Below are positions 8,111 through 9,740 of a stretch of DNA of 37,985 nucleotides, one piece after another. Under the pieces are notes generated by a model, which saw only the letters and a list, made by a program, of their open reading frames with translations, was not told the origin of the DNA and made no database searches. Both the position numbers and the translations under genes were made by a program. This DNA is from Thermoplasmata archaeon (GTDB lineage: Archaea > Thermoplasmatota > E2 > UBA202 > JdFR-43): assembly GCA_021162065.1 (NCBI GenBank), contig JAGGZK010000041.1, forward strand, positions 1-37,985, written 5' to 3'. How positions within the stretch are numbered: the first letter of the stretch is position 1; every line of letters begins with the position of its first letter.

Positions 8111-9538
8111 TTAATTCTCAAGCCCGTAATGCTTTAAGAGGTGATGATATTCCTCCACGTCCATCAGATTGCCAACAGCCCTCTGAACCACCTCGCTCAG
8201 CGAGGGATGAATGTGCATCGCCGCATATATGGGATAGGCGCTCTGGCTGGAGGTATACATGAGGTTTATTACTTCATGTATCAAAATGGAGGCATGTGGC
8301 CCTATTATATGCGCCCCCAGAATGCGAAAATCGTTTCTCTCCACTATTATCTTCACAAAGTAATCCTTTGCCTTCATGGCAATTCCCTTCCCCGTATCCT
8401 CGTACCTGTAAAATCCTATGAGAATGTCATCGCCATACTTCTCCACCGCTTTGCTTTCACTCATACCAACACCTGCTATCTCCGGATGGGTGAAGACAGC
8501 ATGGGGGACGGCATGATAATCCACCTTCACCTTCTTCCCCAGGATGGCATTGTAGTAAACCACCTCGCTTTCATAGTTGGCAGCATGTTTGAATAAATGT
8601 TTTCCGGTGGCGTCTCCCATGGCCCACACGCCAGGTTGCAATGTTTGCATGTATTCATTCGTCACAATCCAGCCACGGGAATCAACTTTTATTCCTCCCT
8701 TTTCCGGATGCAGGATATCAGCATTGGATGCCCTGCCGGCGGCTATTAGAAGTGCCTCCGCCTCAAATTCCTTTCTTTCCCCCGATTTCCTGTCAATGGC
8801 AACAATTCTTTTCCTGTCGTCCTGCCATGCCTCCTTCACCTCATGATTGGTGTATATTCTCATATGCTGGCTTAACTTATGAAAAGCGAGGTTTGATATT
8901 TCCGGCTCTTCCTGAGGAAGGAAGCGAGGATTTCTGCCCACTATGGTGACATCCGTGCCCATGGAGGAAAAGAAATGGCCGTATTCTGCTGCTATATACC
9001 CGCCTCCCACTATCACAATGCTCTCTGGCCTGTGCTCTATCCTGAGTATCGTATCGCTTGTGTGATAATCCACCTTCTCTATGCCCTTTATGGGAGGTAT
9101 GTATGGCTTTGAACCGGTGCAGAGAAAGATGGTATCTGCTTTTATTATTTTTTCACCCACCTTTAGCATATAAGGGGCAATGAAGGATGCGACCTCCTGA
9201 TAGTAATCTATGCCCTGGGCATGGCTCAATCCGTGCTTTATCATCTCTATCTCCTCGTCTATGTGGTTTCTCATATACTCCATTATTTCCTCGAATTTTA
9301 TATTCTCAATTCTTGCTTCTATTCCAAATTCTTTAGCCCTCTGTATTTCCCTTACTAGGTCGGCGGGGTGAAGAATGATTTTGGAAGGAATGCATCCTCT
9401 GGTGAGGCATATTCCTCCCGGCTCGTCCTTATCTATGACTGCCACCCTTGCCTCCGGATTTCTTCTCAAAAACGGCTCAACCAGATTCATGGCGGAGCCA
9501 GTGCCTATAACAATCAGATCGTATCTCTCTTCTTCCAT
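8111..9538 (-). CDS. Dihydrolipoamide-dehydrogenase-like flavoprotein disulfide reductase
   Basis: Class I pyridine-nucleotide disulfide oxidoreductase of about 475 aa. Visible: FAD-binding YDLIVIGTGSAMN, redox-active GGICLTRGCIPSK, NAD(P)-binding IVIVGGGYIAAEYG, a second FAD motif VWAMGDATG, and a C-terminal dimerisation domain with the catalytic His-Glu pair in HIHPSLSEVV. I prefer ATG 9538 (MEEERYDL). The tracked start at 9589 adds 17 unrelated residues, and an A/T-rich box (about 9557-9567) sits about 25 nt before 9538, but 9589 also has an A/T-rich region upstream and cannot be excluded. No 2-oxoacid dehydrogenase, glycine cleavage or mercury genes are adjacent, so the physiological disulfide substrate is unknown. 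It lacks an N-terminal mercury-binding domain and the C-terminal Cys pair of MerA. Confidence 0.88.
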   Translation of the reverse strand: MEEERYDLIVIGTGSAMNLVEPFLRRNPEARVAVIDKDEPGGICLTRGCIPSKIILHPADLVREIQRAKEFGIEARIENIKFEEIMEYMRNHIDEEIEMIKHGLSHAQGIDYYQEVASFIAPYMLKVGEKIIKADTIFLCTGSKPYIPPIKGIEKVDYHTSDTILRIEHRPESIVIVGGGYIAAEYGHFFSSMGTDVTIVGRNPRFLPQEEPEISNLAFHKLSQHMRIYTNHEVKEAWQDDRKRIVAIDRKSGERKEFEAEALLIAAGRASNADILHPEKGGIKVDSRGWIVTNEYMQTLQPGVWAMGDATGKHLFKHAANYESEVVYYNAILGKKVKVDYHAVPHAVFTHPEIAGVGMSESKAVEKYGDDILIGFYRYEDTGKGIAMKAKDYFVKIIVERNDFRILGAHIIGPHASILIHEVINLMYTSSQSAYPIYAAMHIHPSLSEVVQRAVGNLMDVEEYHHLLKHYGLEN

Positions 9539-9610
9539 AAAACTTAATACGGCATTCATTTTATTCTTTTGGCTGCGGTGCCATGCCACTCATTAACTCG
9601 ATGTCAATAA

Positions 9611-9630
9611 AAACGAAATAAATAAATAGC
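9611..9630. promoter_or_regulatory. A/T-rich promoter region of the structured RNA (possibly bidirectional)
   Basis: AAACGAAATAAATAAATAGC contains a TATA-like repeat. On the plus strand its centre (about 9622) is 26-28 nt before the first base of the hairpin RNA. On the minus strand it could serve an upstream start (about 9589-9595) for the flavoprotein gene. Confidence 0.5.
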
Positions 9631-9647
9631 AAATTTTGCTATAATTG

Positions 9648-9725
9648 CGGGAAGGATAGGCTGGTGGCAAAAGGCATCCCATCCCCTCCCAAGTAGGTGC
9701 TTTTTTTCCGGCCTGTCCTTCCATA
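9648..9725 (+). ncRNA. Candidate stand-alone structured RNA, long hairpin with C-rich loop
   Basis: The plus strand folds into one long hairpin. A 15-bp outer stem pairs GGAAGGATAGGCTGG (9650-9664) with CCGGCCTGTCCTTCC (9708-9722). After a small internal loop (TGGC/TT), a 10-bp inner stem pairs AAAAGGCATC (9669-9678) with GGTGCTTTTT (9696-9705). A 17-nt loop CCATCCCCTCCCAAGTA remains. Several pairs are G-U on this strand and would be A-C mismatches on the other, so plus is the likely transcribed strand. A TATA-like element lies 26 nt upstream and a T-run (9732-9737) downstream. The next gene, fumarase, has its own TATA box, so this is not simply its leader. I do not recognise an RNA family; no tRNA, C/D box or clear ACA tail is present. 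Confidence 0.55.
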
Positions 9726-9730
9726 TTCCC

Positions 9731-9740
9731 CTTTTTTATT
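9731..9740 (+). terminator. T-rich terminator of the candidate RNA
   Basis: CTTTTTTATT follows the hairpin RNA by about 9 nt. Archaeal RNA polymerase stops at such T-tracts, so this plausibly defines the 3' end near 9737. Confidence 0.4.

Follow-up and report, generated by a model that had tools for sequence, protein, structure and literature searches.

What is the role of an unrecognised hairpin RNA encoded near position 9,650 of a 37,985-nucleotide stretch of DNA (the window) from a Thermoplasmata archaeon (forward strand of contig JAGGZK010000041.1, assembly GCA_021162065.1)? An earlier note on this DNA described the element as a stand-alone hairpin with a C-rich loop and proposed that it regulates mRNAs through their Shine-Dalgarno sequences. 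The sequence comparisons presented here make it likely that the hairpin is a trans-encoded small RNA with its own promoter, which pairs with the leader of ftsZ in a cdrS-ftsZ operon, hinders binding of the 30S subunit and lowers FtsZ. Through ftsZ, the small RNA probably controls cell division.

The hairpin RNA is complementary to the ftsZ leader

Searching the element against its own 1.38 Mb assembly identified a single further site, in the opposite orientation on contig 50. This site corresponds to a gap of approximately 50 nt between a gene encoding a 75-amino-acid ribbon-helix-helix (RHH) protein and ftsZ. The downstream protein was identified as FtsZ above the cut-off (TIGR00065), and the 75-residue protein matched RHH_1, its best NCBIfam model being CdrS, below the cut-off. 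The loop of the hairpin and its 5' flank (9659-9691) form a bipartite antisense of 28-30 nt to this leader (blocks 1 and 2, Table 1), and the pairing of block 2 includes one G-U pair. The resulting duplex of 28 bp had an energy of -62.4 kcal/mol. Among 1674 control tiles taken from the window, none did better than -40.4 kcal/mol, which leaves the runner-up in these 38 kb of the genome more than 20 kcal/mol behind the ftsZ leader. In families f1 and f2 of the relatives the duplex ended about 12-23 nt before the AUG, adjacent to the 5' side of the ftsZ Shine-Dalgarno sequence, downstream of the cdrS stop codon and inside the expected 30S footprint. Complementarity to the ftsZ translation initiation region, as in regulators of the DicF/DinR type, was found. 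The RNA and its target are encoded apart, on contigs C15 and C50 here and on separate contigs or at a distance in relatives, and long complementarity to the ftsZ leader was detected in nearly every genome examined.

The idea that the C-rich loop pairs with mRNA by a Shine-Dalgarno sequence was borne out for the ftsZ leader, but not as a general property. A generic anti-Shine-Dalgarno role was rejected because control tiles were far weaker and because the long complementarity, not just CCUCC, co-varied. An exposed CCUCC was not a conserved feature, since CCUC in the largest family is predicted to be enclosed by a small hairpin. The proposal that leadered genes are regulated and leaderless genes spared found no support; the evidence points to one dedicated target, the ftsZ leader.

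The RNA and the ftsZ leader co-vary

The genomes compared were mostly metagenome-assembled genomes (MAGs). In families f1 to f3, the ftsZ leaders of relatives were located by protein homology and not by motif; rows G034, G037 and G039 were left out because the leader was incomplete, the homology match having begun inside FtsZ. Duplexes were drawn for 18 genomes of three families. In f1 they spanned 27-33 bp, with a perfect duplex of 33 bp in G008, 32 bp in G011 and 27 bp in G016. In f2, GGAUAGGCUGGUAGUUGUUA of the RNA faced a perfect, uninterrupted complement of 19-20 nt in the leader, where block 1 was degraded. Leaders of the largest family displayed, in this order, GGGGAUGGGAUGCACCCC, a variable hairpin, CAACUACCAG or AAACUACCAG, and then AGGAGG. 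The variable hairpin found between antisense blocks, mainly in leaders of f4 (GAAGGRCGCC...GGCGYCCTTC type), is a structured element in its own right.

Differences between the RNAs were matched in the leaders. GGUUGC in the RNA was accompanied by GCAACC in the leader in G001 and G008, and GGUAGC by GCUACC in other genomes; in G011, UAGUAUAGC of the RNA was matched by GCUAUACUA of the leader, and in G016, UAGUGCA by UGCACUA. RNAs with GUUG went with leaders containing CAAC and those with GUUU with AAAC in 39 of the 40 tabulated genomes, the exception being G074. Pairing was also stronger between own than between swapped partners: -58.5 versus -54.3 kcal/mol for 13 f1 genomes (reached by 0 of 100,000 permutations) and -32.1 versus -31.3 kcal/mol for 20 genomes of other families (11 of 100,000), with shuffled leaders at -7.0 kcal/mol. 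Pairing with the mRNA is backed by co-variation, albeit through few independent changes and with kinship uncorrected.

Outside the class, six of the seven genomes with the RNA carried the same type of FtsZ (60-64% identity), and the seven genomes without the RNA had only FtsZ of at most 45% identity. A GGGATGGGATGC-like block was present in some of these outside-class leaders, clearly in G086 and partly in others. G330, from a more distant lineage, contained a related RNA, GGGCTGGTTGTTAGAGTGCATCCCATCCC; one of its ftsZ leaders reads GGGATGGGTGGGATGCGAGGTCAGCCC, though its FtsZ belongs to another clade.

Several points weigh against regulation of ftsZ by this RNA. The permutation tests ignore the relatedness of the genomes. 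On the FtsZ tree, the three free positions underwent 2-3 independent changes each, all of them concordant, and one further change occurred in the leader alone; sign tests on these changes were underpowered, and the tree result alone amounts to no significant phylogenetic test. The class-wide pattern surveys demand core motifs, so that variation within the cores was under-sampled. The f2 leader is without most of block 1 while the RNA keeps it, and the retention of this block and its GCATCCCATCCCCTCC core suggests a further role, target or partner. Lastly, translation of ftsZ is most likely repressed, but this direction is deduced from the position of the duplex only.

The hairpin is conserved together with its promoter

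The hairpin was found as the earlier note described it, with stems of 15 and 10 bp and a 17-nt loop, except that the stem starts at 9650 and not at 9648. Its plus-strand fold reached -38.2 kcal/mol (z -3.54) and was equalled by none of 200 shuffles; the minus-strand fold at the same locus was at chance level (z -0.97). No Rfam 15 family was recovered at the gathering score, a permissive scan gave chance-level matches only, and no tRNA or tmRNA match was obtained, in agreement with an unrecognised RNA.

The core pattern of the RNA was present in 71 of the 80 genomes of the class and the reversed control pattern in none, some of the matches in f1 being the ftsZ leader itself read in antisense. 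A covariance-model search recovered homologues of the small RNA, and the named contigs carrying it came almost exclusively from MAGs labelled Candidatus Thermoplasmatota or Thermoplasmata. Among 389 genomes sampled from the phylum, a handful that belong to some of the other classes also had the RNA. Across 47 aligned homologues block 2 was near-invariant and GCATCCCATCCCCTCC in block 1 invariant, the homologues having been selected by that core.

Most f1 genomes contained the hairpin with a transcription factor B recognition element (BRE) and TATA box about 26 nt upstream, the distance also found between the TATA centre and the stem in the window. Of 52 distinct homologues, 45 had CGAAA upstream of the stem, 43 of them at -34 to -39, with an A/T-rich box next to it at -30 to -23. 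TTTT was found within 40 nt downstream in 45 of the 52 homologues, compared with 27% of control windows. The TATA-like box and T-run seen earlier are thus shared by relatives, and the BRE/TATA spacing kept in the 52 homologues argues for a promoter of the RNA's own, as would be expected of a trans-encoded antisense RNA.

In f1 and f2, pairing of the outer stem was retained in 94% of alignment cells, mostly through one-sided changes to plus-strand G-U pairs (26 cells in 16 relatives), in line with the strand preference the earlier note had pointed out. Because a single pair changed on both sides in these families, co-variation within the stem is weak, and the stem is supported by retention of pairing and use of plus-strand G-U pairs rather than by strong co-variation. 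RNAalifold gave no result on the class-wide alignment, in which the 3' strands do not align, and beyond f1 and f2 the single-sequence folds of most homologues did not clearly outperform shuffles. Sequence, promoter spacing and hairpin were kept in dozens of genomes.

Copy number was mostly one or two per genome. A mobile hairpin was rejected on account of this low number and of the lack of matches in viral contigs. Two copies lie about 230 bp apart in G022:C37:7700-8400, and in many f4 genomes a second copy is found at an unlinked site, where it often has another promoter (TCTGCGAAAAAGGTACTTAAA).

Pairing is expected to repress ftsZ translation

In f1, both partners were predicted to form hairpins with complementary loops (CCAUCCCCUCCC in the RNA, GGGAGGGGAUGGG in the leader). 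Cofolding predicted a long f1 duplex formed at the cost of the RNA's own stem, and a bipartite complex around the leader hairpin in the large family. We propose that the loop CCAUCCCCUCCC would first kiss the G-rich leader loop GGGAGGGGAUGGG. Pairing would then extend to the GGCUGGUAG block, opening the stem of the RNA, and would end in a duplex of 27-33 bp or, in the largest family, in a bipartite duplex around the leader hairpin. Such a duplex, directly 5' of the ftsZ Shine-Dalgarno sequence, would hinder 30S binding and lower FtsZ, and the upstream CdrS-like cistron would still be made. The position of the duplex, just 5' of this sequence, in the expected 30S footprint and past the end of the cdrS reading frame, favours repression of ftsZ while CdrS continues to be synthesised, by analogy with the small RNAs sRNA162 and DinR described below. 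On balance, we lean towards a dedicated RNA-ftsZ pair, inherited from a common ancestor of several Thermoplasmatota classes and acting as a brake on division, with pairing that begins as a kissing-loop contact and ends in a bipartite duplex wrapped around a conserved leader hairpin.

The RNA may also be a hub with several mRNA targets, of which ftsZ is the best conserved; this is compatible with repression of ftsZ, and we hold it to be possible but rather doubtful. Extra GGGATGGGATGC sites were enriched over the reversed control, some of them just before start codons, and on the reverse strand of G005:C212 (~310-335) a 76-amino-acid RHH-like gene starts inside GGGATGGGATGCCTGCTACCAG, with both blocks at the start codon. 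The f2 RNA, whose block 1 is retained although the ftsZ leader offers it no partner, and the second RNA copies in many genomes also fit a hub. However, many extra sites were themselves second copies of the small RNA, and no second target recurred across genera among the sites inspected.

Repression is also to be weighed against an opposite effect, in which pairing with the ftsZ leader would activate or stabilise the mRNA, by opening leader structure or masking a cleavage site. sRNA154 of Methanosarcina activates or stabilises some of its targets (PMC5867862), pairing in the present case stops short of the Shine-Dalgarno sequence, and f1 leaders are predicted to fold into a hairpin which pairing would open. 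This hairpin sequesters the Shine-Dalgarno sequence weakly (mean unpaired probability 0.35-0.83), leaving little to activate, and the duplex is within the expected 30S footprint; activation therefore appears unlikely.

It is far less probable that the two places are copies of one minus-strand motif (a protein or ligand site, or the leader of the dehydrogenase gene) with no antisense pair. The minus strand does have the same sequence as the ftsZ leader, and in this genome the start of a divergent gene is 60 nt away. However, in most homologues the promoter belongs to the plus strand, the G-U pairs speak for an RNA of that strand, the minus-strand fold is unremarkable and the upstream neighbourhood differs among relatives. 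Species-specific changes in the spacer also track each other, including G-U matches (GGUGGC with GCUACC).

A reading of the hairpin as a riboswitch or attenuator in the 5' leader of fumA, the fumarate hydratase gene, is scarcely credible: the RNA precedes fumA in several genomes of f1 and in f2 but lies away from it in G001, G008, G009, G011, G015 and G016, and in the window a T-run and a separate TATA-like box, the one earlier assigned to fumA, precede that gene.

Features of the locus

The features of the hairpin and its neighbours are listed in Table 1. From sequence features, the transcript is estimated at approximately 70-75 nt. Only a few tens of bases separate the end of the small RNA gene from fumA in family f2 and in G006, and linkage to fumA is retained in many genomes, though not in all.

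Table 1 Position of the small RNA, its parts and the adjacent genes in the window
Feature	Length	Position	Strand	Evidence or remark
Pyridine nucleotide-disulphide oxidoreductase gene		8111-9589	-	5' neighbour
BRE/TATA promoter element CGAAATAAATAAATA		9614-9628	+	sequence; CGAAA upstream common to 45/52 homologues
Small RNA gene, hairpin GGAAGG...CCUUCC		9650-9722	+	folding, core pattern, covariance-model matches, named contigs; transcript ends approximate
Outer stem	15 bp	9650-9664/9708-9722	+	folding
Antisense block 2 GGCUGGUGGCA		9659-9669	+	pairs with UGCUACCAGCC of ftsZ leader; also top of the hairpin's own 5' strand
Inner stem	10 bp	9669-9678/9696-9705	+	folding
Antisense block 1 GGCAUCCCAUCCCCUCCCA		9673-9691	+	perfect pairing with UGGGAGGGGAUGGGAUGCC of ftsZ leader
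Hairpin loop	17 nt	9679-9695	+	CCATCCCCTCCCAAGTA
Outer stem, 3' strand		9708-9722	+	more variable than 5' strand, pairs retained, many G-U
T-run, probable archaeal terminator		9732-9737	+	sequence; T-runs also 3' of homologues
Fumarate hydratase gene (fumA)		from 9780	+	3' neighbour

Relation to known regulatory RNAs

A regulatory role is known for only a few of the small RNAs of archaea (PMC5867862). In one archaeal RNA, sRNA162 of Methanosarcina mazei, the pairing region is an unstructured linker, and the second cistron that it targets encodes a transcription factor linked to the metabolism of methanol and methylamines (PMC3510493). Similarly to sRNA162, the RNA described here would pair inside a bicistronic mRNA at the ribosome binding site of the second cistron, with discoordinate expression as the expected result. 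Unlike sRNA162, it would pair through a hairpin loop and a stem strand, the regulator-like gene comes first and the target is ftsZ.

In bacteria, DinR of Klebsiella represses ftsZ translation by occupying the ribosome binding site; it is Hfq-dependent and processed from the 3' end of dinI (PMC10907235). DicF of E. coli is a prophage-encoded small RNA acting on cell division (PMC5069750). The RNA of the window shares with both an aim at cell division, but is archaeal, has its own promoter and long complementarity, and is conserved across genera and classes. We suggest that it works like RNAs that mask ribosome binding sites and, in outcome, like the bacterial RNAs that target ftsZ, a likeness of mode that does not place it among them. 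StfZ, a cis-antisense RNA of E. coli ftsZ (PMC9628754), is likewise tied to the region 5' of ftsZ, whereas the present RNA comes from an unlinked locus.

The same type of operon, cdrS-ftsZ2, is under transcriptional control by CdrS/CdrL in haloarchaea (PMC7439475), and a processing site near the ftsZ2 start in Halobacterium hints at post-transcriptional control of ftsZ2 (PMC8303175). In the parts of these two papers drawn on here, control is transcriptional or amounts to an unexplained processing site, and a trans-acting RNA is not reported. In the open-access papers searched, subscription papers and preprints not being covered, no paper was found on such an RNA in Thermoplasmatota.

Collectively, an RNA of such deep conservation, whose recurrent target in a division operon co-varies with it, would provide a concrete case of post-transcriptional control of archaeal cell division, and indicates that target co-variation can identify the partners of RNAs in uncultured lineages.
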